IMG/VR virus record: IMGVR_UViG_3300025009_000330
Span: 1-27,661 of that record
DNA length: 27,661 bases
Direction: 5' to 3' (one strand)
Source of the DNA: a virus
Below are positions 11,263 through 27,543 of this stretch, in pieces. The translations under genes and the position numbers were made by a program. Below the pieces are notes generated by a model that saw nothing but the letters and a program-made list of their open reading frames with translations, did no database searches and had not been told where the DNA came from. Position 1 is the stretch's first letter. Each line of letters opens with the position of its first letter.

Positions 11263-12458
11263 ATTACTTCATCTCCCTCTACCGGTTGTGTAAAGCCGGT
11301 TTTCTCATACACTTCATTTTTCTTAAGAGGAATTTTTGCAGCTCTCAATTCCGAAATTGTACGCGCGTTTGTTTCAAAATCTTGGGCCTCATCAACATTA
11401 GTTTCGTAAACCGGAAAAGCATCGCGCGGCTCGCCGTAATTCATCAAGTAATCTTTCTTGATGTATTGCTCGGACATAACATCATCAAGGTTCAATATAT
11501 CCGCGTACAAATAATCTTCGCGCACATAATTTTGAATTTTGCCAAGCGCGAAGCTTCCAACATTGCCCGATTGTGTTGTTAGATTTTGTCCGAGCATGGA
11601 GATAGACATTTCAGTATTGACACCATTAATAAATTTTTCGTGCATAGTGCCAATACCTTCGCGTACAGCTTCAAGAAATTTTATTTCAACATCTTTACTG
11701 AATGCCGCTTTGCCGTCGTTGCCTAAGTTGCGTAAACCTTCAGTTACTTTTGCAACCTCTTCCGGTTTTGCTTTTATATCATACATAGCAACAATCAAAG
11801 CATCGGAAAATTTTTCATTTGCTTGAGCCCAATAAAATGTATCCCAATATTTCAACAGAATATAAATCATGTTTGTGCGCGCAATAGCTCCGGGAAAATC
11901 ATTGTCAATTCCTTCAAGCGGATTGTAACGCATAAACAAATGAGTATCAATATCAAGCGGAGCGCGGGAAAAGTTTCCGGTTTTATCGGAAGTAATTTTA
12001 TCGAGTCCGTCTGATGTTGTAAGAGAGTAATCCAAATCAGTGAGATCCAAAAAACTTATTTTCTTAACACAAGATTTATAGATGGGATGATTATCCCAAA
12101 GTAAATTTGTTGCACTCAATCCATATACAGCGCCATTCATTAAAACACTTTTCGCTTTGTTCAATTTACCAAAACGAAAACGCTGTTTTATTTCATCAAG
12201 TTTTTTCTTTTCAGCATCGGGAACCGGAACATCATCCGGGAATTTTATCCGATAAGGAAAACCGAGCACAGCAAGCTTGCGTGTTTGCATCAAACCAAAG
12301 AAGTGTCTATCGGCTTGAGGCAAACGTTTTAAGAATGAGAGCAATTTTCTTGTGTCTTTATAGCGGGCATCTTCATTGGTTGCAAGCTTAACATAATTTT
12401 TCACTTGGTCGAAAGTTGGAAGCAATGAACTTTTAAGATCGGGATTGTAGTAAGGCAT
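11259..12458 (-). CDS. Portal protein (Mu gp29-like, DUF935 type)
   Basis: A 399-aa protein, shorter than Mu gp29 (roughly 510 aa). Family features: DRHFFGLMQTRKLAVLGFPY near residue 75 ('D-x-h-x-x-x-l-x-x-R'), then AKSVLMNGAVYGLSATNLLW, and a middle region with HLFMRYNPLEGIDNDFPGAI and KYWDTFYWAQANEKFSDALI. The portal dodecamer forms the DNA entry vertex and docks terminase and neck proteins. AGGAG lies 6 nt before the ATG. It lies between the large terminase and the small gene at 11262, as portal genes do. The C-terminus is short, and the MuF partner normally next to it is far away in the early region. Confidence 0.82.
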   Translation of the reverse strand: MPYYNPDLKSSLLPTFDQVKNYVKLATNEDARYKDTRKLLSFLKRLPQADRHFFGLMQTRKLAVLGFPYRIKFPDDVPVPDAEKKKLDEIKQRFRFGKLNKAKSVLMNGAVYGLSATNLLWDNHPIYKSCVKKISFLDLTDLDYSLTTSDGLDKITSDKTGNFSRAPLDIDTHLFMRYNPLEGIDNDFPGAIARTNMIYILLKYWDTFYWAQANEKFSDALIVAMYDIKAKPEEVAKVTEGLRNLGNDGKAAFSKDVEIKFLEAVREGIGTMHEKFINGVNTEMSISMLGQNLTTQSGNVGSFALGKIQNYVREDYLYADILNLDDVMSEQYIKKDYLMNYGEPRDAFPVYETNVDEAQDFETNARTISELRAAKIPLKKNEVYEKTGFTQPVEGDEVI

Positions 12459-12467
12459 AGTAAACTC

Positions 12468-14102
12468 CTAAAAAACTTTTGTTAAATTTCTTTTAGATAC
12501 GGAAATGTAATTGAAGCGCTCCCGCTTGTTGTATAAATAATCCGCAATGTTTTCAGTAAGCAGAATATGATAGAGACAGATAATCAAATCCGCCGCATCA
12601 TCTTTGCTTCCTTCTTTTTTCGAAACAAATTTGAATACTTGTTTAAGAAAAGTTTTTCCCTCTTCGCTTTCGGAAAAGCCCGGAGGAAAAAGAAAAACAC
12701 CATTTTTCCATTCGTTGCTGCATGGTGTAGAAATGTTATCAACAACTAATCTGTAAAAAGTAATGAACGGGAACATTACATTCTCAAGCGCTTCAAAGTT
12801 ATCAATGTGGTTAGTCCACGAACTTTCTTGAGCTACGTTCCCGTCCATTCCAAATATTTGTATGGAACCTAAATTGTTGCACTGATTAACACACTCCAAA
12901 TAATCTTTAAGAAGATCGTTTGCTTTAGCGTAACTTTTACAGCGCGGGAATAGAATAAATATTTTTTTGCGCGTTGGAGAAAAAAACATTCCGGCTAAAG
13001 CTGTTGTATCTCCCTTTCCTTTCTTAGATAAATTTTGGTCAACATACACAGCGCCGGTTAAATCATCCGGGAAAGATTCCCAATCGAATTCAGCATAGAA
13101 CTCTTTTGGAAATACGTGAGCTGATTTTAGAACCGGTCTTCCTTGACCGTTGCCCGCCCAATCGTAAGAATCATTCATTCCCATTAACTTTTGCATTTCC
13201 GCTTCTGATTTAGCGGGATAGCGCGCAAACCAAATTGATTTATATCTACCGGCTCTGTTTTTATCCCATGCGGCGTAATGATGAACAATAAAATCGGGAT
13301 TAAGAATTCCTTTCTCGAACTCTTCAAGCATATCATTTTGAGCGGTGTCAATATCAAAGTTGTTTCCTTCCGCAATCAAAGTGCCGCGCTTACCAAGTGA
13401 GCCGCGCATTTCATTCAACATTTTTATTCTATCATCACGCATTTCTTTTTTGCTTGAGGAGTTTGTTGATTCCCAATCAGTTAAGAAAATTAAACCGTAA
13501 CGTGAAAAAGAATTTGCAAGTCCGCGTGAGCTTCTTTCCATTGAGAGAGCATCTAAATAAGTTCCGCGCGGATTTTTATTTGTACGGACAAAAATTTGCT
13601 CTTTACTTTTTTGAACGAATGTAATTTCAAAATCATGTTGTATGCGTGGCGAGTTTTGCAGAAAGAAAATAATATCAACAATTCTTTTCTTTGCCGGAAT
13701 TAATGTTTCACTGCCAACAGCAATTTGCCTTCTCTTACCATAAAGAATTATTTGAATTATTTTTTTTATGAAGTTGGAAGTGCTTGCAACATCGCGCGGC
13801 TTAATTAGTATGTGCGCTTTTTTATCTTCCAGTTCTGTTAAAGCAGTAATTTCTTTATGAAAAATTCCGGGAGGACAAAAATCTTCATGCACTTCAGGAG
13901 GAAAATAATTCTTATCGAAAAAGAAAAAATCATTTTCGCTTCGTTCAACTCTTTCGGCTTTAGCTTCCGGCGTTCTCTCTTTAGCTGCAAACTTTGAGGA
14001 AGCCGCATATTCGGAAGCAAGAAAAAGTTTTCTCTCATCAGCACTCCGCTCCGCAATTATTTTGTCAAATTCAGAGCTTAAATCTTGTATGAATCCTTCC
14101 AT
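12468..14102 (-). CDS. Terminase large subunit (Mu gp28-like)
   Basis: A 544-aa DNA-packaging motor. The ATPase half shows LIKPRDVASTSNFIKK (101-113), a deviant Walker A without GK[ST], as seen in some phage terminases, and a Walker B-like GLIFLTDWES (203-212). The nuclease half shows acidic residues D355 (VYVDQN), D420 (FGMDGN) and D501/D502 with D505 (KDDAADLI), the usual metal-binding set. AGGAAG precedes the ATG. It lies between the small terminase gene and the portal in the leftward operon. Mu-type terminases package by headful from the phage end into flanking host DNA. Confidence 0.87.
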   Translation of the reverse strand: MEGFIQDLSSEFDKIIAERSADERKLFLASEYAASSKFAAKERTPEAKAERVERSENDFFFFDKNYFPPEVHEDFCPPGIFHKEITALTELEDKKAHILIKPRDVASTSNFIKKIIQIILYGKRRQIAVGSETLIPAKKRIVDIIFFLQNSPRIQHDFEITFVQKSKEQIFVRTNKNPRGTYLDALSMERSSRGLANSFSRYGLIFLTDWESTNSSSKKEMRDDRIKMLNEMRGSLGKRGTLIAEGNNFDIDTAQNDMLEEFEKGILNPDFIVHHYAAWDKNRAGRYKSIWFARYPAKSEAEMQKLMGMNDSYDWAGNGQGRPVLKSAHVFPKEFYAEFDWESFPDDLTGAVYVDQNLSKKGKGDTTALAGMFFSPTRKKIFILFPRCKSYAKANDLLKDYLECVNQCNNLGSIQIFGMDGNVAQESSWTNHIDNFEALENVMFPFITFYRLVVDNISTPCSNEWKNGVFLFPPGFSESEEGKTFLKQVFKFVSKKEGSKDDAADLIICLYHILLTENIADYLYNKRERFNYISVSKRNLTKVF

Positions 14103-14239
14103 AGCAGAAACTTCCTAAAATCGTTTATAAGGCGGTTTTGCCAAAAAGATGGGGTATAACTCATCTTTGAAGACAAAATCGGTTTTTGAGCGGGTTGGCG
14201 AATTCCAAATTATGGTCATTTTAGCGGTTGTGGTCATTT

Positions 14240-14764
14240 TTACAGTTCCACATTACTTTTTAGCTTTTCATACTCTTCCAAGTATATTTTCTTGATTTCA
14301 TCCAATTCCAATTCCGGTTGTAAGCGAAGCATAATTCTCATCATTAATTCAGCATTCATTCCCTTCATGTGAGATTGTAATTCGAGCGCTTCCAAATTTT
14401 TTAGCAGTGCCGATGCTTTTTGAATTAATGTAAGTTTAACATCCGGTGCATACGTTCTGGTTTTCAAATCTTTAACAGCTTCATGCAAACTTGTTTGCAG
14501 CATTTCTATAAGAGAAATGTTTTCGCGATCGTTAGGTTGAGTTCCTTCGCTTTGCTCAGGATGCCTTTTCGTTCCTTTGTCGGAACGAACGGCACTTTTC
14601 ATTTTTACTTTGCCGTATATAACAGCATTAACCTGGTGAATTGAACAACCGATATAATCTGCAATTTCTTTTGGTTTATGATTGCCGCTATTGAACATCT
14701 CTTTAATTTCTTTGCGTGTACCGGGAGAAAGTTTAGGAGATTTTTTTCTTTTGAGATTTTTCAT
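14240..14764 (-). CDS. Terminase small subunit-like (HTH, Mu gp27 position)
   Basis: A 174-aa protein. N-terminal helix-turn-helix: TRKEIKEMFNSGNHKPKEIA, DYIGCSIHQVNAVIYGK (residues about 16-53). The C-terminal half is helical with a charged end, for oligomerisation and large-subunit contact. It sits directly upstream of the large terminase. Residues about 59-79 (RSDKGTKRHPEQSEGTQPND) are encoded by a palindromic interspersed repeat inserted in frame at 14541-14590. The start overlaps the upstream stop (ATGA). The gap 14103-14239 to the large subunit holds only the ribosome site and a direct repeat TGGTCATTTT. Confidence 0.68.
   Translation of the reverse strand: MKNLKRKKSPKLSPGTRKEIKEMFNSGNHKPKEIADYIGCSIHQVNAVIYGKVKMKSAVRSDKGTKRHPEQSEGTQPNDRENISLIEMLQTSLHEAVKDLKTRTYAPDVKLTLIQKASALLKNLEALELQSHMKGMNAELMMRIMLRLQPELELDEIKKIYLEEYEKLKSNVEL
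14541..14590 (-). repeat. In-frame interspersed repeat inside small terminase gene
   Basis: TTCGTTCC (14568-14575) and GGAACGAA (14582-14589) form an 8-bp hairpin, flanked by CTTCGCTTTGCTCAGGATGC, whose complement reads RHPEQSEG. That peptide is a well-known translation of repeats widespread in bacterial genomes. The frame of the host gene is kept. Confidence 0.7.
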
Positions 14765-15207
14765 TGTGCAAAGTCCATCATGTAGAATAAATTTAATTTT
14801 AGAATTGCTTGATCGGCTCTTTTAGCTATAACATCGAACGGTCTTTTCTTTACACTGATAATCACTAATTCATTTACTCCGCTAGTATTGCTTAACTGAT
14901 AATTACCCGGAACAAGACTTAATATTTTTTTTGCTATTGTGAAACACTCCGCAAGATTTTTGCCCGGCGTACCTTGTTGGGAAGAACAAATTATAATTGG
15001 TGTATCAATTGCAATATCAACGGGAGAACCGGCGCTGTTTTGTTCGTCGCTTTCTTCAGGCATTTCAAAACAATATGTGTAAGGCGGATTAAATTCTTTT
15101 CCGTTTGATTCCTCATTCATTTCTTGAGCGGTTGTTATTCCAATCTGTACAAGATTTGTAGTTTGAATGAGATTTATTTTCTCGATTACTTTATCCGGCG
15201 TTACCAT
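14761..15207 (-). CDS. Mu gp37-like neck/connector protein
   Basis: A 148-aa protein. The N-terminal helix (TPDKVIEKINLIQTTNLVQI), an acidic linker, then alternating strands, CFTIAKKILSLVPGNYQLS and a C-terminal ILKLNLFYMMDF give a layout like the DUF1834/gp37 family, in which 'I...L...' helices flank a beta sheet. It follows a gp36-like gene directly, as gp36-gp37 do in Mu. I infer a head-tail connector or tail terminator; the match is weak by eye and mainly positional. Confidence 0.45.
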   Translation of the reverse strand: MVTPDKVIEKINLIQTTNLVQIGITTAQEMNEESNGKEFNPPYTYCFEMPEESDEQNSAGSPVDIAIDTPIIICSSQQGTPGKNLAECFTIAKKILSLVPGNYQLSNTSGVNELVIISVKKRPFDVIAKRADQAILKLNLFYMMDFAQ

Positions 15208-15615
15208 TTATAAAATTCCCGTAATTCTTTTTGTTGATTCAAACATTGGTGTTAGTGCTGATGTTAAAACAATTGCGGCTCCGGTTGAATCGTAAAGAGT
15301 ATCTTCGCCGCTTTTTATTTTATCAAGATCACTCATTGCATCTTGGTACATATTTTTCCTTTTCTGATAATCCCATGATTCTTTAGTTACACCTTCTTTA
15401 CCGGCGATATACCAAAGACAGATTCTGCAAGCAATATTTTGTAGATAAACGTTTGCTGTTTCGGGAGTTGCGGGAGTATCAACGCCAAGTTTACTTTTTA
15501 TAATTCCATCAATTTGTTTAACGATGGATTCAATGTTTACAAAATCCTCTTGCTTAACCATGAAGGAATTTTCTTGATAAAAACTTTTTAGAACACCCGT
15601 GTCTATATAACTCAT
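15208..15615 (-). CDS. Mu gp36-like head-tail connector (DUF1320-type)
   Basis: A 135-aa mostly helical protein. NVYLQNIACRICLWYIAGKE, then WDYQKRKNMYQDAMSDLDKI and KSGEDTLYD follow the DUF1320/gp36 pattern: a helix with 'aiD-x-i-x-x-yl', then 'R-x-x-Y-x-x-Am-x-x-L-x-x-i-x-x-G'. These adaptors bind under the portal. It is the first gene of the leftward operon, with a TACCTTTG -7 box just upstream. In Mu the homologue follows the major head gene on the same strand; here it is divergent from it. Confidence 0.6.
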   Translation of the reverse strand: MSYIDTGVLKSFYQENSFMVKQEDFVNIESIVKQIDGIIKSKLGVDTPATPETANVYLQNIACRICLWYIAGKEGVTKESWDYQKRKNMYQDAMSDLDKIKSGEDTLYDSTGAAIVLTSALTPMFESTKRITGIL

Positions 15616-15645: not shown

Positions 15646-15757
15646 AATGATGGATTTATAAAAAAGTGTCTATTAGTACCAGTAGCCAACTACATACAAA
15701 TCAATGCTTTAGATTCGCTGGTGAAATTTGAAACGAAAAAAGAAAAGGAAGGAAGAA

Positions 15758-16150
15758 ATGAAAATCATAAAAGGTAATGAGTTGAAAACTGGTACTGATG
15801 AAAAACAGAAAGACGATCAACCCGCTTCGACTAACGTCGAGCGAGGCAAGGATCAAGATCAAGAAAAAGAAAAGAATGAAAATCAGAAAGCTGATGTGAA
15901 CGAAAAATTAAAAGACGATCAAGAGCATGAGCACGATCAAGATCACGAAAAAGAGAAAGATATGAACGGATACGAATTTGAATTTAAGTTTGTTGAAAGC
16001 GGCAAAGAAATTGAAAAGAAAATTTTGTTCGGTTCCGGCAATGAAGCCGATGCAATAAAGGAAGCGAGAAGTAAAGCTGATGAATATAGCGCCGGAAAGT
16101 TTGAAGTAGTATTCACCGGTAACTTTAAGAAAATCATTTCGGAGGAATAA
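15758..16150 (+). CDS. Highly charged late protein
   Basis: 130 aa from ATG 15758, chosen because AAGGAAGGAAGAA precedes it; a TTG reading from 15728 adds ten lysine-rich residues. Residues about 10-75 are a repetitive Asp/Gln/Glu/Lys linker with several DQ and HDQD units (low-complexity, tandem-like DNA). The last 55 residues form a compact domain, YEFEFKFVESGKEIEKKILF, with a strand-helix-strand pattern. Part of the linker is coded by a palindromic repeat (15821-15850). First gene of the late rightward operon, before the scaffold. Role unknown; a capsid accessory is possible. Confidence 0.6.
   Translation: MKIIKGNELKTGTDEKQKDDQPASTNVERGKDQDQEKEKNENQKADVNEKLKDDQEHEHDQDHEKEKDMNGYEFEFKFVESGKEIEKKILFGSGNEADAIKEARSKADEYSAGKFEVVFTGNFKKIISEE
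15821..15850 (+). repeat. Short palindromic interspersed repeat, copy B, in frame
   Basis: CGCT-t-CGAC (15823-15831) pairs with GTCG-AGCG (15836-15843) around loop TAAC, then GAGCGAGGCAAGG, identical to copy A at 9084-9096. The stem differs from copy A in both arms. It is translated as PASTNVERGK. Confidence 0.6.
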
Positions 16151-16154
16151 GATC

Positions 16155-16757
16155 GTGGACGTAAAGAAACTTGTAGCAGCAATAAAAGCATTCTTCGCAA
16201 CTAAAAATATTCAGCTCGGAGAAAATGATGCCGCATTGGAAGCAGAAGTTGAAAGATTGATGAAGGATAATTCTACGAGCGAATTTGATCTATCGAAATT
16301 AGATTTATCCAAGTTTGGAAATTCCGGTACGGAAAAAGTTTTACAAGCCGTGTTAGCTAATCAAACGAAGTTGGAAAATGCTGTTACCAGTATCGCAACA
16401 ATGGTAAAGCAAAGCGCCGATTCGGTTAAAGCTGAAAAAGATGCAATAGAGGCTAGCAAGAAAACGCAACACGAAACCGATGTTAAAAAAGCTGTTGATG
16501 GTTTAATCATAACTAAGAAAGCTTTCCCGGAAGCAATGAGAGAGCATCTTACAAAAGTTGCAACTGCCGATCTTGATTCATTCAACATTATTTATAAAGA
16601 CGCGAAAGCGGGAAAAGAATTTACACCGGAGAAACCGGGCGAGGAAGGAAATAAAAATGTTGCAGTTAAATCAACAAGCGGCAATTCAAAAGCATTAAAA
16701 GCAATTCAAGAGTTTCAAGCAAATTCGGCTTCTGTTGAATCAACGGAAACAAAATAA
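16155..16757 (+). CDS. Capsid scaffold protein (Mu gpI/Z C-terminal-like)
   Basis: A 200-aa protein with GTG start 16155, 5 bp after the upstream stop (GGAGG before it). It is helical and charged, with a central coiled coil (LANQTKLENAVTSIATMVKQ) and KKAVDGLIITKKAFPEAMRE followed by HLTKVATADLDSFN, like the C-terminal scaffold part of Mu gpI ('I-x-P-A-x-r-e-x-l-x-x-lA-x-x-D-x-x-x-F'). It lies immediately before the major capsid gene. Mu gpI has an N-terminal serine protease that is absent here, and no other maturation protease is visible in the window. Confidence 0.65.
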   Translation: MDVKKLVAAIKAFFATKNIQLGENDAALEAEVERLMKDNSTSEFDLSKLDLSKFGNSGTEKVLQAVLANQTKLENAVTSIATMVKQSADSVKAEKDAIEASKKTQHETDVKKAVDGLIITKKAFPEAMREHLTKVATADLDSFNIIYKDAKAGKEFTPEKPGEEGNKNVAVKSTSGNSKALKAIQEFQANSASVESTETK

Positions 16758-16784
16758 TTTTTCAATAAATATTAGGATATAGAA

Positions 16785-17738
16785 ATGAACATTGCACAAA
16801 TTGGAAATCTCGGCCCGCGCGCTCAGGCATTGTTAAGTTTAATCTTAGCGCAATTACAAATTTTCCGCGTTGCTGAATTCAGATTGGACGCATCAACACA
16901 TTTACATGCAGTTGATAAACATAGTGCAACCGGTACTGCTGCAAGAGCTGAGGGAGCCGATACAGTTCAGACAGATAAACAAGCTCCATCAACCGAAGCA
17001 AAGAGTTTGAATCTATATACACGAGATGCAACAATTGATAAAGTTAGAACTCAGGATAAACTTTTAGGGATTGGCACTGAATTCCAAAAGTTGTTTGCAG
17101 ATCAAAGAATGGATTCAAATGTTATTGCTCTAGCTGAGGAAGTCCAGAATCACATGTTCACTGGCACATTGACAAACAATCAAATGCTTGGGCTTCTTGA
17201 ATTAATTAAAGATGCTGATGTAGCCGGACAAACGGCGCGTGGTGGTTTTACTCAAACTGAATTAGCAGCAATGAAAAGTAGAGCTGAACTAAAGCTGGAT
17301 ACGACCGAAAACCAATATGCTTTTGTTGAATTAATTGAAAAGGAATTGGCGAATGTTCCGGGTGCTAATGCAATTTTAGTAAATGCGAATGTTGGTGCAA
17401 GATTATCAACCATTGCTCGAAAAGTTTCCGCGCTAGGAATGACGATGGATCAATTTGGGTTCCCTTTGCAAACATTCAACGAAGTTCCAATTGTAAAAGT
17501 CCCAACCACTGCAATATCTCAGACGATGAGCGACGGAGTAAACGCGGACTGCACTGCTATTGCAATTGTAAGGTTTGCAGAAAGACAAGGAATGTGTTAC
17601 TCGACAAACTCGGGTTTCTTGTATCAAGATTTTGGAGAGATTGCCGGAAGCAGCCATAAGGCAGAGGCCAATTTGTTTTTATCAACAACGGTTGAGAAAC
17701 AAAACGCAGTAAAAATTATTTACAGAATTAGATTATAA
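16785..17738 (+). CDS. Major capsid protein (HK97 fold)
   Basis: A 317-aa protein with AGGATATAGAA before its ATG, right after the scaffold gene. Typical of HK97-fold capsid proteins are the N-terminal helical segment and E-loop region (residues about 60-110), the mid P-domain helix (ELAAMKSRAELKLDTTENQY) and the C-terminal signature NANVGARLSTIARK... GFPLQTFNEVPIVKVP...IVRFAERQGMCYST. The segment 'G-x-P-l-x-t-f-x-g-v-P-i-v' is common to these capsids. Alanine and threonine are enriched compared with neighbours. The DNA for TELAAMK is part of the recurring 20-mer. Confidence 0.82.
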   Translation: MNIAQIGNLGPRAQALLSLILAQLQIFRVAEFRLDASTHLHAVDKHSATGTAARAEGADTVQTDKQAPSTEAKSLNLYTRDATIDKVRTQDKLLGIGTEFQKLFADQRMDSNVIALAEEVQNHMFTGTLTNNQMLGLLELIKDADVAGQTARGGFTQTELAAMKSRAELKLDTTENQYAFVELIEKELANVPGANAILVNANVGARLSTIARKVSALGMTMDQFGFPLQTFNEVPIVKVPTTAISQTMSDGVNADCTAIAIVRFAERQGMCYSTNSGFLYQDFGEIAGSSHKAEANLFLSTTVEKQNAVKIIYRIRL

Positions 17739-17840
17739 TCCCGATTGATGGTCTGGTGCGGGAACCATATTCCTCCCGTGCTAGGCCGTCGTAATTTTTA
17801 TTCAAAATTATTTTTTTGTTCAAACATATTTGAGGTGTTA

Positions 17841-18311
17841 ATGAAACTAAAATTTTTGATTCCGTTACTGCTTATTCTTTTTGCGTTCTCGATAGAGGCG
17901 CAAGTAAGTGTAACAACAACTTACAATCACGACGTGTACAATCAATACAGTTTTTCCGATGCACTTTCCGGTACTGCAAATGATACAACGGCGGGATTTG
18001 CTCCATACACAAAAGGAGCGGTTGAAAATATTTTTTCACTTTATTCCTACACAGATCAAGCTAATGATTCTGTCTACATAAAGATATATAGAGAGATTCA
18101 AGCGATTGACGGAAAGTGGACAAATACAACTTTGGTAGGTATTGATTCGCTCGGAGGTGCGAAGGTTTGGAGCGACACCTTAGCGCATAATTTTTTGAAA
18201 GTAAGATATGTACTTGACGGCTCCAACAGCACCGCAAAGAAAAATGGTTTAGGAACAACTTACAGCGTAAACGTTCTTAACGCGAGAACGAAGAAAATAA
18301 AATTAGAATAA
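17841..18311 (+). CDS. Secreted protein of unknown function in the structural block
   Basis: 156 aa from ATG 17841, supported by GAGGTG; a longer reading from 17745 would mask the signal peptide. The N-terminus is a clear Sec signal: MKLK, hydrophobic FLIPLLLILFAFSI, then EAQ as cleavage site. The mature part is beta-rich and threonine/serine/tyrosine-rich (ATTYNHDVYN-like repeats of polar strands) and ends in a basic segment. Only one of its neighbours on the left is structural; those on the right are lysis genes. It could be exported to alter the cell surface, or be a moron. It is followed by a terminator, so it closes the capsid transcript. Confidence 0.65.
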   Translation: MKLKFLIPLLLILFAFSIEAQVSVTTTYNHDVYNQYSFSDALSGTANDTTAGFAPYTKGAVENIFSLYSYTDQANDSVYIKIYREIQAIDGKWTNTTLVGIDSLGGAKVWSDTLAHNFLKVRYVLDGSNSTAKKNGLGTTYSVNVLNARTKKIKLE

Positions 18312-18333
18312 GTTTTTTACTCCTTGACGAAAG

Positions 18334-18377
18334 CCGGTTGCATTAACACCCGGTAAGCTAATGCAACCGGTGATTTT
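18334..18377 (+). terminator. Terminator-like hairpin between capsid and lysis genes
   Basis: CCGGTTGCATTA (18334-18345) pairs perfectly with TAATGCAACCGG (18359-18370), 13-nt loop, followed by TGATTTTA. The T run is interrupted, so it may attenuate rather than stop transcription. Confidence 0.6.
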
Positions 18378-18392
18378 ATAAACCAAAAAAGA

Positions 18393-18647
18393 ATGATGAT
18401 GAAAACAAAAGATATTTACATGTACGTTTTAGGAATTATAGTAGTGCTTGCGGTGCTTACAATTGTTGCGGCGCTGATATTTGTACCTATACCGTCTATG
18501 AATAAAGACATTTTGAATATTGTGCTCGGTGCATTGCTTGCTCAGTTTGCAAACATCATTCAATATTTCTTCGGTTCATCTCAAGGCAGTAAAGACAAAG
18601 GCGATTTAATTAATCAAATGAAAAGTACAAACGCGGGTGCGCAATGA
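18393..18647 (+). CDS. Holin-like two-span membrane protein
   Basis: 84 aa, with three consecutive ATG codons at the start (18393, 18396, 18399). Two hydrophobic segments (residues about 9-31, LGIIVVLAVLTIVAALIFV, and about 40-61) are joined by a short loop, then a polar tail with FFGSSQGSKDKGDLI. That 'FFGSS-x-GS-x-x-K' ending is common in small two-span proteins of Bacteroidota phage lysis regions. It heads the lysis cluster, 4 bp overlap with the next gene. A holin is likely; an alternative is a phage membrane accessory. Confidence 0.6.
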   Translation: MMMKTKDIYMYVLGIIVVLAVLTIVAALIFVPIPSMNKDILNIVLGALLAQFANIIQYFFGSSQGSKDKGDLINQMKSTNAGAQ

Positions 18648-19135
18648 AAGAATTTATTACAAGCTACCTAAAAAAGTTTGAGAGTGATACTCTCCATTAT
18701 ATCAAAGCGAATATTATTGCTCTTGTAATAATTCTTAGCGCTGTTGTTGCCTTAACAGTTTGGATATTGCCAAACGAAAAACAAGTTGATGAAACCGAAT
18801 ATTCTGTTAACTCCGAGATTGCAAAGAATACGGATTTGCATACGATGGAATATGTTGACGCGAAGCTTGGTTTGAAGCAAGATAAAAAGTTAGCGGAAGT
18901 AAAAGCTGTTAAGAAGCAGAATTTATTTTTTCACTTTGTAGCTTTCATTCCAATTCTTGGTATAGCGGTGGTATTCTTGGCAATGTTAATGCAAGCAATT
19001 TATACAAAAATTCAGTTTACAAAAAACTTATTAGCCGGTATGCGGATATTAAGCGCAACGCTCTATTGCTCCACCTTAATTGTAATTGTTGTTTTTGCTC
19101 TATGGTACATTAAAACCTACTTCCTAATTGCATGA
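18644..19135 (+). CDS. Three-span membrane protein of the lysis cluster
   Basis: A 163-aa protein with hydrophobic segments at about 24-42 (IIALVIILSAVVALTVWIL), 94-115 and 136-160, and a charged loop between the first two (residues 43-90). It overlaps both its neighbours by 4 bp (ATGA), so it is translated with the holin-like and endolysin genes. It could be a second holin, an antiholin or a regulator of lysis timing. No family is recognised. Confidence 0.55.
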   Translation: MKEFITSYLKKFESDTLHYIKANIIALVIILSAVVALTVWILPNEKQVDETEYSVNSEIAKNTDLHTMEYVDAKLGLKQDKKLAEVKAVKKQNLFFHFVAFIPILGIAVVFLAMLMQAIYTKIQFTKNLLAGMRILSATLYCSTLIVIVVFALWYIKTYFLIA

Positions 19136-19662
19136 AAAATATTTTAACAAAAATATTACTGCTTATTCTTTTTACTGCAAGCATTACAGCACAGGCAGAA
19201 ACAACAGAAGTTGGCGTCTCTTTAATAAAATATTTTGAGGGATTGCGGACTAAAACATATAGATGCAGTGCCGGAGTTCTTACAATTGGAATTGGACATA
19301 CCGGAAGCGATGTATTTGTAAACCAAATAATTACAAAAGCGGAAGCGGTTTTATTACTGAAAAATGATTTAAGAAGATTTGAAAATTATGTTGATAAAGT
19401 AGCTGTTAGAAATATTAAATGGCATGAGTTCGACGCGCTTGTATGTTTTAGTTTTAATCTCGGTTATAGAATTGACGCTGTTATGAAAGAAGCAATTAAC
19501 AGAAGTAACACGAAGTTGGTTTTAGTAAAAATGTTGCGTTACAACAAAGCAAAAGTAAACGGCAGTTATATTGTTCTAAACGGATTGATGAAACGAAGAA
19601 AAGCGGAAGCAGCGCTCTATCAAAATAAATTATCAAGCTCTTTGAAGCTTGCAATGATGTGA
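19132..19662 (+). CDS. Endolysin, T4-lysozyme type (GH24), with signal sequence
   Basis: A 176-aa muramidase that cleaves the peptidoglycan glycan strand. The catalytic triad is E36-x8-C45-x5-T51 in KYFEGLRTKTYRCSAGVLTI, with GIGHTG after it. The Cys at the second position occurs in the P1 Lyz type; others have Asp. The N-terminus (MKNILTKILLLILFTASITAQA) is a Sec signal with a likely cut after AQA, so it should reach the periplasm without needing a large holin hole, as signal-sequence or SAR endolysins do. Family features WHEFDALVCFSFNLGY and LNGLMKRRKAEAALY are present. Confidence 0.9.
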   Translation: MKNILTKILLLILFTASITAQAETTEVGVSLIKYFEGLRTKTYRCSAGVLTIGIGHTGSDVFVNQIITKAEAVLLLKNDLRRFENYVDKVAVRNIKWHEFDALVCFSFNLGYRIDAVMKEAINRSNTKLVLVKMLRYNKAKVNGSYIVLNGLMKRRKAEAALYQNKLSSSLKLAMM

Positions 19663-19665
19663 GAA

Positions 19666-20127
19666 ATGGAAAAAGCTAAAGCTGTTGATATTGTACTTGT
19701 GTTTGCTATTCTGATAATGATCGGAGTTGCTATTGAAATGATCTCAAATTGTTCGGGAAGGAAAAGTGTTGTTGAAACAGTTATTGTAAAAGATACTGTT
19801 ACAAGAGTTGATACTATCCGCGTTCCTAAAACTATTTACGTTACAAAGTTGCAAGCAAAACTTGATACAATATTCGTTAATAATAATCCGGTTCAAGTTG
19901 CTAAAGCCGATACAACTTTACAGAAAGATTCAAGCAAAATAGATATTAGTTATTTCTTTCCGCCGTTAAATTATTTTGAAGCAAAGTTTGACATAAAAGA
20001 AAAAATAATTGAAACGTTAAAAACAATTACGGAAACAATAACTGTTACTGTAGAAAAGCCGGTATATCAACAATGGACTTTCTGGAGTACGATAGCGGCT
20101 GTTCTTTTATTATTTGTAGTGAAATAA
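19666..20127 (+). CDS. Spanin-like membrane-anchored protein (candidate)
   Basis: A 153-aa protein with a membrane segment near each end (residues about 8-26, IVLVFAILIMIGVAIEM, and about 137-152, STIAAVLLLFVVK) and a long polar, threonine/valine-rich middle (VETVIVKDTVTRVDTIRVPK). C29 follows the first segment closely. Directly after the endolysin, it is where Rz-type spanins lie, but the C-terminal anchor and beta-rich middle differ from the coiled-coil Rz. A unimolecular spanin or a lysis accessory is inferred from position. Confidence 0.45.
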   Translation: MEKAKAVDIVLVFAILIMIGVAIEMISNCSGRKSVVETVIVKDTVTRVDTIRVPKTIYVTKLQAKLDTIFVNNNPVQVAKADTTLQKDSSKIDISYFFPPLNYFEAKFDIKEKIIETLKTITETITVTVEKPVYQQWTFWSTIAAVLLLFVVK

Positions 20128-20152
20128 AAAACATTAACGAAAGAAAAAGGAA

Positions 20153-20338
20153 ATGAAAACATTGCATAACAATTTTGAAATTCTCAGTGTGAATGGTTTC
20201 TCTGTTGTGTCTGTAATACTTGCATGGTTTACACAATACACCGGCTTACTAACTGTACTTGTTTTGATTTCCAGTTTGGTTTATAACTGTATAAATATTT
20301 ATCGAACATTGAAAAAGAAAAAGAGTGGTGAAAAATGA
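20153..20338 (+). CDS. Small two-span membrane protein
   Basis: A 61-aa protein with hydrophobic stretches at about 15-30 (GFSVVSVILAWFTQY) and 32-50 (LLTVLVLISSLVYNCI), then a basic tail (RTLKKKKSGEK). AAGGAA precedes the ATG. Such size and charge pattern suit a class II holin. It ends the lysis cluster and overlaps the next gene by 4 bp. With the two membrane proteins before the endolysin, the cluster would have several holin candidates. Confidence 0.55.
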   Translation: MKTLHNNFEILSVNGFSVVSVILAWFTQYTGLLTVLVLISSLVYNCINIYRTLKKKKSGEK

Positions 20339-20622
20339 GTGAAGTTGTTGCCGGACAAATTTGGAAATTGAAAGAACCGCTTTGGGCTAAAACATTTGGA
20401 CAAGGTGAGCCGCCTACTGCAATGAAAATGCAGTTTGGTGAAAGAGTAATTGAATTAGAATTTGGAAAAGAATTTAAAGCAAGCGGAAGCTGCGACTATA
20501 ATAATGATCCGCCAATATGTTCGCTTAACCAAACTCCGCCGTTATTGAGAACTGAGTTCATTGAAAAAAACATTGAACAATTTGAATTAATTGAAGATGT
20601 AATTACAGAAGAAAAATTATAA
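20335..20622 (+). CDS. Hypothetical late protein
   Basis: A 95-aa protein beginning MSEVVAGQIWKLKEPLWAKT, with a beta-rich first half and an acidic C-terminus (EQFELIEDVITEEKL). It lies between the lysis genes and the first tail gene, overlapping the former by 4 bp. The start resembles short SH3-like 'G-x-i-W-x-l' proteins common in phages. No function assigned. Confidence 0.55.
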   Translation: MSEVVAGQIWKLKEPLWAKTFGQGEPPTAMKMQFGERVIELEFGKEFKASGSCDYNNDPPICSLNQTPPLLRTEFIEKNIEQFELIEDVITEEKL

Positions 20623-20642
20623 TAAAAAATTAGAGGTAGCCA

Positions 20643-21029
20643 ATGGCAAACAGTAAATATTCCGGTATTAAAAAAATTGAATACGCAGCAACGGGAACTG
20701 CTTTTGCAAGTCCGGTTGAAATTACACCAATCCTTGAAGACAGCGACGGGCATACACCCGAAAGTCAGAAAGAAGGATTGAGTGACGGAAGAAAAGTTTA
20801 CGCCGGAACAAATAACAAGTTCACGGTAAAATGTTTAGACCTTTCAAAATTTGCCGCGCTTGAAACATTGATGAAAGCGGATAGCGGAATTGATATTCGT
20901 GTTACGGATATGGAATCAAATCTCAATACAGTTGTTGTTGGTGCAATTCCAATTGTTTCGAAACCGGCAAATGCAGCTGCGCTTAAGAGAAATTATTTTA
21001 CGCTAGAATGTGAGATTGCAGTAGTATAA
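20643..21029 (+). CDS. Tail-tube-like protein (candidate major tail protein)
   Basis: A 128-aa protein preceded by GAGGT. It begins NSKYSGIKKIEYAATGTAFA, continues through ITPILEDSDG...KEGLSDGRKVYAGTNNKFTV, and ends in NYFTLECEIAVV. Its order of features (KI-x-Y...ATGT...G-x-x-Y-x-G...L...M...) matches the N-terminal half of the next gene, so both seem built on the same fold. Position before chaperones and tape measure suggests a tail tube protein. Function is inferred from position. Confidence 0.55.
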   Translation: MANSKYSGIKKIEYAATGTAFASPVEITPILEDSDGHTPESQKEGLSDGRKVYAGTNNKFTVKCLDLSKFAALETLMKADSGIDIRVTDMESNLNTVVVGAIPIVSKPANAAALKRNYFTLECEIAVV

Positions 21030-21083
21030 CGCTTCGACTTCGCTCAGCGCAAGCTCCGATCCTCTCCTTAAAATAAGGAGAGG
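21030..21083 (+). repeat. Interspersed palindromic repeats between tail genes
   Basis: CGCTTCGACTTCGCTCAGCG (21030-21049) shares CGCTTCGACT with copy B at 15823. Next to it CCTCTCCTTA (21061-21070) and TAAGGAGAGG (21074-21083) form a 10-bp hairpin with an AAA loop. Both types resemble host-genome interspersed repeats. The hairpin has no T run. Confidence 0.6.
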
Positions 21084-21115
21084 GAGAAAAGATTAATTGA
21101 ATAAGGATTTTTGAA

Positions 21116-21952
21116 ATGACAGTAACGGGACAAAAGAAAATATCTATTTACGATCCGGCAACGGGAACGGTTGTTCAACTAAATAATATTTCCGAGGAAG
21201 GTGAGTTCGAAAAGAAAGGCGCATTTATTAAAACAAGCGCGGGCAGCAGAATGTATTCCGGCGATGAAAGCAAAGCGGAATTCCTTTCGCTCGATTGGAC
21301 TGGCTACGATCAACTTGTTACATGGATGAAAGAAAGAACTCCCGTTCGCTTTGTTACTTACGGACTTGATGAACACATACTTTGGTATGAAGACACCTTA
21401 ATAACAGTTGATTTGAAAACTGTTTTCTCACCTTATAAAAGAAGCGGCTTCAAAATATATTTTGAAAAAGCGGGCGGAGTGCATGAGATTTATAAAGGAG
21501 CAAATTTACTGTACAAAGCAAAAGGATGGAAAGATGTAGACACAAGCAACAAGGCGGATAATTATATAATTAACACCAGTGGCGGTAGTTTTACATTTTT
21601 ATTCCAGAACGGCATGCAAAAAATAAGTTGTGTAACAGATGGAAATTTAACTTTCGCCGCAACCCTTGTTTATCCAATATCAGGAATTACGTTAAATTTA
21701 TTCCAGAGATTTGGGGTGGATAACAACATTATACAAGATCAATATACATATATTAAAGATTTTGGTGGTTCACCTCTAACCAATGTTCACGGTCCCAGGT
21801 CAAATGTTCTTTCAGCAACTTCACCGGCAAACGTATATACATTCGAGTTGTATCTTATCAACGCTAATTATTCAATGGTCAGCGGGAACATTATCCAGAT
21901 TTATTCTCCATACTTAGGTTTAGCATCAACAATATTAGAGATTTTATATTAA
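21116..21952 (+). CDS. Tail protein with tube-like N-terminal domain
   Basis: A 278-aa protein with AAGGATTTTTGAA before its ATG. The N-terminal half (GQKKISIYDPATGTVVQLNN, SRMYSGDESKAEFLSL, DWTGYDQLVTWMKER) parallels the preceding 128-aa protein. The C-terminal half (from about residue 120) is unrelated, serine/asparagine/tyrosine-rich and beta-like, possibly a surface-exposed domain. It may be the main tube protein with a decorated domain, or a minor tail protein. It overlaps the next gene by one base. Confidence 0.55.
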   Translation: MTVTGQKKISIYDPATGTVVQLNNISEEGEFEKKGAFIKTSAGSRMYSGDESKAEFLSLDWTGYDQLVTWMKERTPVRFVTYGLDEHILWYEDTLITVDLKTVFSPYKRSGFKIYFEKAGGVHEIYKGANLLYKAKGWKDVDTSNKADNYIINTSGGSFTFLFQNGMQKISCVTDGNLTFAATLVYPISGITLNLFQRFGVDNNIIQDQYTYIKDFGGSPLTNVHGPRSNVLSATSPANVYTFELYLINANYSMVSGNIIQIYSPYLGLASTILEILY

Positions 21953-22380
21953 TGATAACCGGTGCAAAATATAAATCTCTTCGCATGTTGCGGTTAAAGT
22001 ATTCCGGTACAAGCGCACAAGAACAATTTGAAATTATTAACGAATTCAAATTGAATGAAGAGTACAAAGCAATTAATGAGCTGCGAATTCAAAGGGATGT
22101 TATAGAAAATTTTATTGTAAAACTTAAAACGGAAATTGATCTTAATACTCAGTGCAAATTTACCGGCAAAGTAAAAGAACTGGAAACAGAGCTTGCCGCA
22201 ATTGAAACACAACTGAATGAGATTAACAGTGAACTTGCTAATAAAGATGCTGAAAAGATTTCTGTTGTTGAATATTACGAAAGCCTCTTTGAAATTTTAT
22301 TTGGTGAAAAAAAACCGTTCGACGAAATAGATATAGCGGCAGTAAACAAAGCATACAAAGATTTTTTTTTGAGTTTGTAA
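21952..22380 (+). CDS. Tail assembly chaperone, short form (gpG-analog)
   Basis: A 142-aa helical, charged protein directly before the tape measure gene, the place of the tail assembly chaperones. Coiled stretches (RIQRDVIENFIVKLKTEIDL, KVKELETELAAIETQLNEIN) are followed by EYYESLFEILFG and YKDFFLSL. Near its end nine T in a row (22362-22370) followed by G give a slippery TTTTTTG; the stop is three codons later. Ribosomes slipping back one base would add the 89-residue frame to 22640. Chaperone pairs of this kind guide tape measure folding in siphovirus-like tails. Confidence 0.65.
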   Translation: MITGAKYKSLRMLRLKYSGTSAQEQFEIINEFKLNEEYKAINELRIQRDVIENFIVKLKTEIDLNTQCKFTGKVKELETELAAIETQLNEINSELANKDAEKISVVEYYESLFEILFGEKKPFDEIDIAAVNKAYKDFFLSL

Positions 22381-22640
22381 AACAGTTCTCTCAGTTTGTT
22401 AATGATCTTGAAATTCTTAAAGAACTTCCTTCTCCGCCAAAAATTAAACGACCACCGGAATATGAGGATTACGATAACGATGTAAAATTTGTCCGGGAAC
22501 AATATTACAAGATGCACTGGGAATACAAAAGCATACTTCTTAGATTTACTTCCACACCGCAAGAGTTCGATTACCTTTTCAACAAGCCCGTTCACGAAGT
22601 TTCAAAATTCATTATTAAAAAACAGTTAGGCGCAGAATGA
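22365..22640 (+). CDS. Chaperone extension by -1 frameshift (gpGT-analog)
   Basis: From the slippery run, the -1 frame is open for 89 codons (EFVKQFSQFVNDLEILKELP at its start, KFIIKKQLGAE at its end) to TGA 22638-22640. It lacks an in-frame ATG until mid-way (about 22510), so translation by frameshift at T TTT TTG (22365-22371) is the simplest explanation; the fusion would be about 229 aa. The stop overlaps the start of the tape measure gene by 4 bases. Composition is protein-like, with a proline-rich hinge (SPPKIKRPPEY). The same pattern could come from a miscounted T in the homopolymer, in which case it is one long gene. Confidence 0.7.
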   Translation, partial: FFEFVKQFSQFVNDLEILKELPSPPKIKRPPEYEDYDNDVKFVREQYYKMHWEYKSILLRFTSTPQEFDYLFNKPVHEVSKFIIKKQLGAE

Positions 22641-25603
22641 GCGACATAGAATTAAAATTATTACTCGATGGAAAACAACACGACGCCACACTTCTTAACA
22701 GTGATAAAATTTGGCAGCAATTAAGAAGAACCGCGCTTGATACATACAACAAAATGCAAAGCGGAAGTAAACCAGTTGAAGGTTCACTTGGTGCAATGCG
22801 TGAACGTCTCGAAAGATTGAATTCAATTTTTGACAGAACAAAAGTTGGCAGCGATCGTTTTAATTCTATTGCGGCGGAAGTTGGAAAAACAAAAGATAAA
22901 ATTAGAGAAGCAGAAGCACAGGCAGCAATATTTTCTCATAGAACTGAAAGCGTTGCTGATAAATTAAGCATGTGGGGAAATGCTGTTACCGGTTTTAATC
23001 AAGGATTAGAACTTGCAAGAAAAGGATTAGATTTTTTTAGCAAGCCTCTTAACATTGCCGGACAGTTTGAAGATGCGAAAGTTCAACTAAGTGTTTTACT
23101 TGGCGGAGTTGATGCGGCACAAAAAAGAATAGATGAACTCGCTCAATTTAGTGCGAGTACACCTTTTGAATTTCCTCAGATAGTGCAAGCCTCAAAAGTT
23201 TTACAAACATTTGGCGGAGATATACTAGCAGTCGGAAAAAATTTAACAATGATTGGTGATGTAAGCAGTGGAACCGGGCAACCGATTGAAGAACTCGCGT
23301 TACATTTTGGAAGATTGTACGATTCAATACAAAGCGGCAGACCGGCGGGCGAAGCATTAATGCGTTTGCAAGAAATTGGAGCGCTTACCGGAAAGAGCCG
23401 TGAGGAAATTGAGAAAGCTATTTCTTCCAACAAAGATGCCGCCGCAACTTGGGATATTGTTACAAACTCGCTAGGCAGATACAAGGGAATGATGGAACAA
23501 CAAAGCCAAACCTTAAACGGAATGGCAAGTAATATGAGAGATCAAATTACTTTGTTGTTACGCGACGCGGGTAATGAAGTACTGCCAATTGCAAAAGATA
23601 TTTATGATGTGTTGATTCCGGCAATTGGCGACTTGCGCGGGAACCTTGATGTAATTATTCCAACTATGAAAACAATTGCAATCGTAACAGCCGCATGGAC
23701 TTTAGCAATGTATGGAGCGGAAGCGGCTGCAAAAGCTAAAGCAATTGCAACAGCATTGGCGACATATGCGGTTAAGCTTTTCAACTTTACGATGGCAATG
23801 AATCCAATCGCCGCAACTGTTGCCGCGCTTATTAGTTTAGTCGCAATACTTGCTCAAGTAACAGATGGATTTAATTTCACTACTATGGCTGTTAAAGATG
23901 AGATAAAAGCAAAGAAAGAAGAAATTGAATCAACGCGGATTAGTTTAGGATTGCAAGAAGATAATATTAAGAGACTGATTGAAGAAGCAAAAAGAACAAA
24001 CGCTACTGCCGAAACTATTGATAACTTAAATAAGAAACTTGAAGAAACAAATCAACGAAGAATACAGTTAGCAAATACTGAAAGTTGGATTAAAGCAACA
24101 GAAGCAGCAACCGAATATATTGACAGTTTAGAAAACCTTGCCGGTGGTGTAATTGGAAATTTGCTTTCCGGTAAAAGTGTTGGTGAAACTGTTCTTGATG
24201 TTCAAAATGCTTTGAGTCGTGAGGAGTTTGCAAAGACTCAATTATTTACCGGAAGTATTGAAAAGAGAATTCAAGCTGCTAACGTTCGTATGAACGGCGC
24301 TACACTTGAGCAAAAGAAAATATTATTAACATATATTCAAACTCTTCAAAGCATGGATTCTCTAAATGCGAATGCTTCTAAAGTTCCGGTAGTAGGAATT
24401 GTTGCAAAAGATGAAGAGAAAAAAATAGGTGAATTAAAAAAGGAAGTTAATACACTTAAAGCTAGTCTTGATAATTACAAGCCGACTCAGTTAGCTGAAA
24501 TTGAAGCGGTAAATAAACAGATTGAAGCTAAAGAAAAATTGATTAGTGTAATTGAGAAAGAAAAAGTTTCTCGCGGCGGCTCAAGCTCTAACAAAGTTAC
24601 TACAACTGTTGAAACTGTTAAGCGCGATATTACAATTCCAAACTTGCAAGCAAAAGGAGCCGATACGCAATCGAGCAGCTATCAAAAAGAAATTGATTCG
24701 ATGAATATTCTTAATGCCGCGAAGGAAGAATTTTTTAGAAAAGATTTGGAGCGGTATGAAGAAGAAAAATTTAATCAATGGCTGAACGTTGCAACACAAA
24801 CCGAAATAGATAACATGCTGCTTGCAGAGCACCAGAATATTTCATCATTAAAAAGCCAGTTACTAGCGTCGGAAGATTTAGAAAAACAACAAGCTTTAGA
24901 AAAAGATATTCAACGCGCGGAACAAAAGAAAAATGTCTTACAAAATGAAGCTCAGGCATTAAAGAACTATGTAATTCAAGAAATGCAATATGGAACGCAG
25001 CAATATGATGCAAAGGAAAATTTAGGAAAACAATTCAATAGGCTTGCAAATGAAGCCACACGCAACGCGATTTCGAACGCAATTATGGCATCTGTTGCTG
25101 AAGAAATGGCTTGGGTAGTTAAGATTGTTCCGTGGCCGTTTAATATAATTGCCGCACCGGCAGCCGGTTTAGCAATTCAATATTTGTTAGAACAAGCTAT
25201 TCCAAAATTTGCAACCGGCGAAGTTGACATAGTTGGAAGCTCTCACGCGAATGGCGGAAGGATGGTGAACATTGAGGGCGGAGAATCAATTATTAACAGA
25301 AACGCTACTCAAAAAAATAGAGATGTGCTTGAGTTAATAAACAACGGTGCAACTTTATCAGTTTCGGAACAAAATCGTGCCGCAAAAATAAACAGCATTT
25401 TAACAATGCCATTGCCAAATAATACTGTAAATAATTTTTCCAATGTATCCGCAAATTTTGAAGCGGGCATGAATAGAATGTCTGAAAGATTGGAAAGTAA
25501 ATTTGATAAACTTATTGAAGTAGAAAGAAAAATTACTCTATCACTTTCTGAATTTGATGAAAAATACAGCAACTATAAAAAATCAATTGATGAGTTGAAA
25601 TAA
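22637..25603 (+). CDS. Tape measure protein
   Basis: A 988-aa protein that sets tail length and probably aids DNA passage. Helical, alanine/glutamate/lysine-rich. Residues about 130-260 hold the conserved tape-measure segment (AKVQLSVLLGGVDAAQKRID, FSASTPFEFPQIVQASKVLQ, GRLYDSIQSGRPAGEALMRL). Hydrophobic stretches lie at about 345-410 (LAMYGAEAAAKAKAIATALA, MAMNPIAATVAALISLVAIL) and 840-865. Long coiled coils occur at 425-480 and 615-660. The C-terminal part carries FATGEVDIVGSSHANGGRMV, NIEGGESIIN, a motif frequent near the end of such proteins. The start overlaps the chaperone-extension stop, ensuring coupling. A tail of roughly 140-150 nm would follow from the usual 0.15 nm per residue. 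Confidence 0.88.
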   Translation: MSDIELKLLLDGKQHDATLLNSDKIWQQLRRTALDTYNKMQSGSKPVEGSLGAMRERLERLNSIFDRTKVGSDRFNSIAAEVGKTKDKIREAEAQAAIFSHRTESVADKLSMWGNAVTGFNQGLELARKGLDFFSKPLNIAGQFEDAKVQLSVLLGGVDAAQKRIDELAQFSASTPFEFPQIVQASKVLQTFGGDILAVGKNLTMIGDVSSGTGQPIEELALHFGRLYDSIQSGRPAGEALMRLQEIGALTGKSREEIEKAISSNKDAAATWDIVTNSLGRYKGMMEQQSQTLNGMASNMRDQITLLLRDAGNEVLPIAKDIYDVLIPAIGDLRGNLDVIIPTMKTIAIVTAAWTLAMYGAEAAAKAKAIATALATYAVKLFNFTMAMNPIAATVAALISLVAILAQVTDGFNFTTMAVKDEIKAKKEEIESTRISLGLQEDNIKRLIEEAKRTNATAETIDNLNKKLEETNQRRIQLANTESWIKATEAATEYIDSLENLAGGVIGNLLSGKSVGETVLDVQNALSREEFAKTQLFTGSIEKRIQAANVRMNGATLEQKKILLTYIQTLQSMDSLNANASKVPVVGIVAKDEEKKIGELKKEVNTLKASLDNYKPTQLAEIEAVNKQIEAKEKLISVIEKEKVSRGGSSSNKVTTTVETVKRDITIPNLQAKGADTQSSSYQKEIDSMNILNAAKEEFFRKDLERYEEEKFNQWLNVATQTEIDNMLLAEHQNISSLKSQLLASEDLEKQQALEKDIQRAEQKKNVLQNEAQALKNYVIQEMQYGTQQYDAKENLGKQFNRLANEATRNAISNAIMASVAEEMAWVVKIVPWPFNIIAAPAAGLAIQYLLEQAIPKFATGEVDIVGSSHANGGRMVNIEGGESIINRNATQKNRDVLELINNGATLSVSEQNRAAKINSILTMPLPNNTVNNFSNVSANFEAGMNRMSERLESKFDKLIEVERKITLSLSEFDEKYSNYKKSIDELK

Positions 25604-27543
25604 TGGCATTCACTAAATTTGTTGAGACACCGCTTTACTACAACACCGAGCATAATTACAAAGTTGAATTATACATTGATGACGCGGCTCCTCCAGCATT
25701 AAGAACAATGCAAACAACCGGCGATTATAAAATTACGCGCGGCAATGCAAGTCCGGCACATAAGTATGAACCAATAGCCAACACCTTCGCAGATATTCAG
25801 TTTATTGATGAGGCTGGATTTTTGCAAGGAATAATAGAATCGAAACCGGATCACTTATTGAAGTGTAGAATTATTGAAGACGGAACAACGGAAGTGTTTG
25901 CGGGATTTATTACAGCTAATAGATTGAAAAGAAAATTCTTGCAAGAGCTGGAAACAATATCTATCCGCGCTTACGATGGCTTTAATTATCTTAAAACATT
26001 TACAGATTTTACTCTACTGCCGCAAGGCAAACAACCGATTTCGAATATGTTAATGGCTATTCTTAATAAACTAAATCTGAATAGAAACCTTTGGCTCTCA
26101 ATACAAACATATCCAACAACAACTACAACACCCATAAAACCGGCTGATTTTATCGGCTTCGATGTTGCTGATTACTCTTTATTAAATGACGATGCTACTT
26201 ACTACGATTTGTTAGTTGATTTATTGAAGTCGTTAACATGCCAACTTACTTCTGATAGCGGAGATTTTTGGATTAGGCAGATACCTACTTTTGTGAGCGG
26301 GACACTTTATTTTCAGAAAGTAAATTATTCGACCGGTGCTTCAGATTACAGCACATCAAGCGTAACCTTTAGCAGCTTAACTTCGCATCTTGCGGAAGCT
26401 CCAAAGAAATTTAGTATGAAAAGCATTGATAAAATTTCTTTCATTCAATCGGTAAAAAAAGATGATGCTGTTAAGTTCATGCAGCGCAAAAAATATTTAA
26501 CATGGGTAAATCCATTTTTCAAAGATGGTGTGAACGGATGGACGCAATACGGAGCGGCTGGTATATTTGATAATTGTGTCCATGTATATCCCACTAACAG
26601 TTTGGAGCAACTTTCAAGTTATATAACATGCGGCGAAGAAATTGAAATATTATTCTCGTCAACCGTAGTACAGTGGATAAATAGCATATCTGAAAACATG
26701 TATGATATTCCGTTAGTGCGCTTAATTGCATTAGAAACGGGAAGCGATGCTGATGAAGTGAAATATTATAATTTTCAGACTGATACGTGGGATAATTCCT
26801 TCTTAGGTAATGATGCAAAGGTTGATTTGGAAGTTGAGACGCCAAAATATCCGGGGGCATTAGTAAAGAGTTTAGGCATTCCGAATTATTACATGAAGAC
26901 GCTTGTCAAAAATATTTCTACGACGATGCCAAATTTTACTAACGGTAAAGGATCAATTTGGATAGTACTACTTGGAGGCACAGCCTCACCAAACTCTAAA
27001 CCTAAGAACATTACAGCGCAACATAACTACGCAATAGTTAGATATAAAGAAACTGTTGCTGATAATAATAATCCATTCCCCACAGAAGAACGCCATATAT
27101 GTTCAATATCAGTTCCAAAGAATTTGAGTGAGATTAATGTAAAGTTTAACGATACCGATCCATATATTCCTTTATCGTTTTATGACATGAACGATTCGTA
27201 TTGGGAAGGAGCATCCGGAGGAACGACTTACGTTAAAACAGTTTTTTGGACACCCGGAACATTGCCTTTAATGCAGTTACTCTCACAAAATATTCTTGAA
27301 AGTGATGCAAACAATTTGACCGGCTTTGATGTTGTATTCAATACAATGCCTGGTAGTAAGCCGATGTTTTATAATCGCGTTTCTGCCAATTACGAAGGAC
27401 TTGGAGCTAAAATATATTTGCCTGTCTATGAAGAACGTTACCTACTAGGCACAGATTACAAGGTAAGAATGGTATTAATAGAGCACGAAAGGAAGACAGT
27501 TACGAAGACTTATACGAACGAATATGTATTCTCAGACGAATAA
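25603..27543 (+). CDS. Tail tip / distal tail protein (hub-like)
   Basis: A 646-aa protein, last gene of the element, overlapping the tape measure stop (TAATG). Beta-rich N-terminus: YYNTEHNYKVELYIDDAAPP, ITRGNASPAHKYEPIANTFA, ADIQFIDEAGFLQGIIESKP, VFAGFITANRLKRKFLQELE, ISIRAYDGFNYLKTF. The order resembles tail-tip/baseplate hub proteins of Bacteroidota prophages ('y-x-Y...v-x-i-xD-...-G-x-L..., f-x-G-x-v...'). The middle and end are rich in aromatic and polar residues, and could bind a receptor. No other tail-fibre gene follows, so receptor recognition may reside here. Confidence 0.6.
   Translation: MAFTKFVETPLYYNTEHNYKVELYIDDAAPPALRTMQTTGDYKITRGNASPAHKYEPIANTFADIQFIDEAGFLQGIIESKPDHLLKCRIIEDGTTEVFAGFITANRLKRKFLQELETISIRAYDGFNYLKTFTDFTLLPQGKQPISNMLMAILNKLNLNRNLWLSIQTYPTTTTTPIKPADFIGFDVADYSLLNDDATYYDLLVDLLKSLTCQLTSDSGDFWIRQIPTFVSGTLYFQKVNYSTGASDYSTSSVTFSSLTSHLAEAPKKFSMKSIDKISFIQSVKKDDAVKFMQRKKYLTWVNPFFKDGVNGWTQYGAAGIFDNCVHVYPTNSLEQLSSYITCGEEIEILFSSTVVQWINSISENMYDIPLVRLIALETGSDADEVKYYNFQTDTWDNSFLGNDAKVDLEVETPKYPGALVKSLGIPNYYMKTLVKNISTTMPNFTNGKGSIWIVLLGGTASPNSKPKNITAQHNYAIVRYKETVADNNNPFPTEERHICSISVPKNLSEINVKFNDTDPYIPLSFYDMNDSYWEGASGGTTYVKTVFWTPGTLPLMQLLSQNILESDANNLTGFDVVFNTMPGSKPMFYNRVSANYEGLGAKIYLPVYEERYLLGTDYKVRMVLIEHERKTVTKTYTNEYVFSDE

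Follow-up and report, generated by a model that had tools for sequence, protein, structure and literature searches.

A two-frame tail gene in a Mu-like element of Bacteroidota probably encodes a short and a fused form of a tail assembly chaperone by programmed -1 frameshifting

The window studied here, a stretch of 27,661 nt of viral DNA, carries a Portal_Mu gene (PF06074, E=1e-45) and a phage transposase (phrog_310, E=3.5e-15) together with terminase, major head and endolysin genes. By its transposase and its Mu-type portal and head genes the element is predicted to be a Mu-like transposable phage, in line with the Mu-like context described in the earlier note. The portal and the terminase are encoded on the minus strand (10475-15615) and are read away from the head and tail genes, which occupy the plus strand (15728-27543); the portal and the tape measure are on opposite strands also in G069, G420 and G477. 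The same genome contains another element that has a Mu-type portal (G000:C11:101970-103022).

Three consecutive genes on the plus strand of the tail region are of interest here, in the order of tube-like gene, two-frame gene and tape measure, which is the order of lambda-type tails and is common to the relatives. The first gene (21116-21952) encodes a probable tail tube (major tail) protein of 278 aa, as suggested by synteny, weak fold matches and homologues in relatives. Its structure model is beta-rich and of low confidence (pLDDT 49.5), the best PDB matches include phage tail-tube/baseplate proteins with E values of 0.02-0.1, none of them significant, and homologues with 13-38% identity precede the chaperone gene in the relatives. 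When compared to the corresponding protein of an IMG/VR element (L110:6001-6840), the first ~120 residues are identical and the rest strongly diverged, with 65% identity overall, while the DNA flanking the gene is 99-99.8% identical on both sides; the C-terminal half appears to be either swapped or fast-changing between these two elements. One viral contig has two tandem tube-like genes ahead of the chaperone (L112:5134-6837). The third gene (22637-25603) encodes a tape-measure protein of 988 aa (phrog_9959, tail length tape measure, E=5.6e-14).

The anatomy of the gene between these two can be read directly from the sequence. The stop of the tube-like gene overlaps the ATG of the 0-frame ORF (21952-22380), as the neighbouring ORFs of the operon also overlap start to stop. 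The 0-frame product is a gpG-like protein of 142 aa, predicted to be all-helical, with a low-confidence structure model that gave no significant PDB match. A predicted coiled-coil insert of ~60 residues (about 22057-22245) is present in this product and missing from L111, L112 and L003. The ORF ends in the codons ...AAA GAT TTT TTT TTG AGT TTG TAA (22341-22380, plus strand, agtaaacaaagcatacaaagaTTTTTTTTTgagtttgtaa), and so runs into nine T and a G at the coordinates given in the earlier note. The T9 run (22362-22370) is the only one in the window, none being present in the other scored genes, and T9G has 34 occurrences in the 4.4-Mb genome when both strands are counted. The run includes a candidate slippery heptamer T TTT TTT (22362-22368), which would place Phe codons in the P and A sites, and a second, overlapping heptamer T TTT TTG (22365-22371). 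The 0-frame stop TAA (22378-22380) follows three codons past the second slippery Phe codon.

The -1 frame is open from stop to stop over 22308-22640. As previously claimed, it continues for 89 codons past the T run until a TGA (22638-22640) that overlaps the tape-measure ATG at 22637 (ATGA). Counted from the slip, the extension (22368-22640), a putative gpT-like domain, has 90 codons and the TGA. The lack of an early in-frame ATG holds for start codons of any kind, the earliest ATG, GTG or TTG of this frame being ATG 22512, 48 codons after the slip. The second ORF is therefore in a shifted frame, overlaps the 3' end of the first and has no early start of its own.

The coding character of the extension was established directly. 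By codon log-likelihood it scores +16.7 nats when read in the -1 frame, close to the neighbouring genes (+22); the remaining forward frames score -18.4 and -62.7 nats, and every reverse frame is negative. A random stretch with the same dinucleotide content would have 90 codons open with a probability of about 0.002-0.005, and the probability that a T TTT TTN stands in phase in the 24-codon overlap by chance is about 0.017. Homologous extensions were detected by blastp at 22-28% identity in L111 (E 6e-12), L112 (3e-5) and L003 (4e-11), and the protein-like composition noticed before is borne out by these together with the codon usage, which is coding-like in the -1 frame only. The extensions of the remaining relatives are too divergent for pairwise homology.

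Searches with the chaperone alone, in viral contigs, genome contigs, class-wide and in phages, gave almost no matches, and the relatives were therefore sought through the tape measure and the tube protein. The sole family member from direct search was L003 (28% identity in the extension, E=4.8e-7). Matches to the tape measure gave L087, L088, L089, L091, L102, L103 and L104 as well as more distant loci including L108, and L111 and L112 were reached in IMG/VR via the tube protein, making with the window a set of 12. One of the relatives is a Bacteroidetes MAG. L089, L091 and L108 were assigned to the family from their location and the tape measure next to them, and not from the sequence of the chaperone. 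At a greater distance, L105, L106, L107 and L109 also have a downstream ORF in the -1 frame, but because their heptamers are different and there is no early-start evidence against separate genes, these four were left out and add nothing to the argument. A survey of Portal_Mu elements found many with other tail modules, in which the tape measures could not be recognised by similarity to that of the window.

Every relative has a first ORF and then another in the -1 frame, which fills the gap before the next gene, and an in-phase T TTT TTN stands at the junction in all 12 members of the set. When nine predicted fusions were aligned, the last 0-frame residue fell in one column in all nine. The earlier note had proposed a homopolymeric slippery site to be compared among relatives. 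The T TTT TTN heptamer is indeed kept, but the length of nine T is not: the run is T9 in the window, L089 and L104, T8 in L111 and L112, T7 in L003, L087 and L091, and T6 in L088, L102, L103 and L108. Judged from these sequences, the conserved feature is the in-phase heptamer and not the length of the T run. With the amino acids taken as fixed, the NNT TTT codons would occur jointly with a probability of about 1e-5, and of 39 comparable [DNYAS]F[FL] motifs at other places in these loci only 7 use T TTT TT. The first figure includes non-independent pairs (L102/L103), and both leave out of account some relatedness and the fact that some sites were noted because they are slippery. A stimulatory RNA structure 3' of the slip site was not found in the window copy (z +0.76; +0.77), and downstream structure is inconsistent across the relatives, with z below -2.8 only in L088, L091 and L102.

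It is likely, with a probability of roughly 0.87, that this single gene encodes a tail assembly chaperone pair, a short form and a -1 frameshift fusion. Integrated in a Bacteroidota genome, the virus would thus probably make two predicted forms of a tail-building helper protein, and a programmed -1 frameshift between the tail tube and the tape measure is strongly supported by comparative sequence data: the 11 relatives keep the split, the -1 relation and T TTT TTN, as would be expected from the claim of a programmed shift in the chaperone gene. The -1 relation, the conserved heptamer and the position between tube-like and tape-measure genes are direct observations, from which we infer that slippage occurs and sets a ratio of products, that it is ribosomal, and that the products function as chaperones. 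The majority of ribosomes would translate 21952-22380 and release the protein of 142 aa. In a minority, the two tRNA-Phe on U UUU UUU (22362-22368) would re-pair one base back, and the slipped ribosomes would go on in the -1 frame to 22640, resulting in a fusion of 229 aa. If the pair works as in lambda, the tape-measure protein would be coated by the short form, and the extension of the fusion would recruit the product of the tube gene that directly precedes it.

The alternative that deserves most weight, although we consider it unlikely, is that the fusion arises wholly or partly from slippage of RNA polymerase on the T9 run, so that the 229-aa fusion would be encoded by transcripts with ten U and the short form by transcripts with nine. 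The earlier note did not take this possibility into account. The length of the run would allow it, as efficient slippage of bacterial polymerase has been reported where nine A or T stand in a row (PMC5009743); T9 is found also in L089 and L104, where it could act as well, such slippage is known for Thermus dnaX, and no downstream RNA structure is seen in the window copy. However, a homopolymer of roughly this length is not kept in the relatives, and the same junction is present with T6, T7 and T8, runs shorter than those reported for efficiency. Furthermore, the tandem-slip heptamer is always in phase, a phase that slipping of the polymerase would not require and that ribosomal -1 slippage directly accounts for. 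Since relatives with T6 and T7 are not readily explained by it, polymerase slippage is a possible addition in the window and not the common mechanism. It is a somewhat more doubtful suggestion that the heptamer of this lineage has lengthened to T9 and that polymerase slippage and ribosomal frameshifting jointly set the ratio of short to fused chaperone. If true, a phage tail gene would be partly or wholly under transcriptional control of its product ratio. The series from T6 to T9 at one equivalent site offers a natural experiment on the boundary between ribosomal and polymerase slipping.

Homopolymers are error-prone in sequencing and one extra T would join the frames exactly, so the real run might be ten T within a single ORF for the 229-aa protein. 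The earlier note stated that eight or ten T would make one frame, which is incorrect for eight, as this leads to the +1 frame and only ten (or seven) T give a continuous ORF. An assembly error is nevertheless highly improbable, because nine T are present also in an IMG/VR contig (IMGVR_UViG_3300001199_000391) that is 99.84% identical in this region and partly diverged upstream, and because relatives with six or seven T, in which errors of length are rare, are split at the same place. Homologues lacking the second frame or starting it on their own had been named as evidence against the frameshift; a continuous version was not found among the relatives, and the first start codon of the second ORF is deep or absent in most of them. 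The same starts make it equally improbable that the second ORF is initiated independently as a separate protein, from an internal start or by coupling at the 0-frame stop, and conserved residues of the extension precede ATG 22512. Least probable of all is gene decay within a degraded prophage, for although indels in homopolymers are a common inactivating mutation, 11 relatives are split alike and the surrounding tail genes are open.

Taken together, the evidence speaks for a -1 shift of the ribosome of the kind described for lambda gpG/gpGT and D3112/PaMx73. The slippery heptamer is G GGA AAG in lambda and T TTT TTT here, and another difference from the lambda gpG/gpGT type is that sequence similarity between the products of the window and catalogued chaperone families could not be detected. 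The earlier note had suggested searching the extension against tail assembly chaperones, but no Pfam or PHROGs family, the tail-chaperone models included, matched either the extension or the 0-frame product. We therefore regard the pair as a sequence family that is new but belongs to a known kind. Across the tailed phages, a tail-chaperone frameshift between the genes for the major tail and tape-measure proteins is widely conserved (PMC5009743). In Thermus thermophilus dnaX, a T9 run gives two products in different frames, as is proposed for the window, but the shift there is transcriptional, whereas the relatives of the window with T6-T8 argue for a ribosomal site. The gp41/gp42 genes of phage Mu share with the window the position in the operon and the Mu-like element, but Mu uses -2 frameshifting (PMC5009743, PMC2628397) and the window -1; in the transposable phage KS10 no tail frameshift was found (PMC2628397).

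Because of the -2 shift in Mu, the closer precedent is D3112/PaMx73, Mu-like siphophages of Pseudomonas with a proposed -1 site T TTT TTC (PMC4378225). Like the window, this group (PaMx73 core ORFs 35/36) has Mu-like head and transposition genes together with overlapping tail genes for which a -1 slip at T TTT TTN is proposed (PMC4378225). The two differ in that the site of PaMx73 is 43 codons ahead of the 0-frame stop and that of the window three, and in that the second ORF of PaMx73 has an ATG at the first stop while the first start in the window is 48 codons in. In annotation, T TTT TTN at D-F-F codons between tube and tape measure could be taken as a rule to annotate one fused product. Although the type of frameshift itself is known, what is new, as far as the predicted proteins can tell, is an unmatched chaperone sequence family in Mu-like elements of one phylum, and the known tail-chaperone frameshift would thereby be extended to the Mu-like elements of Bacteroidota.
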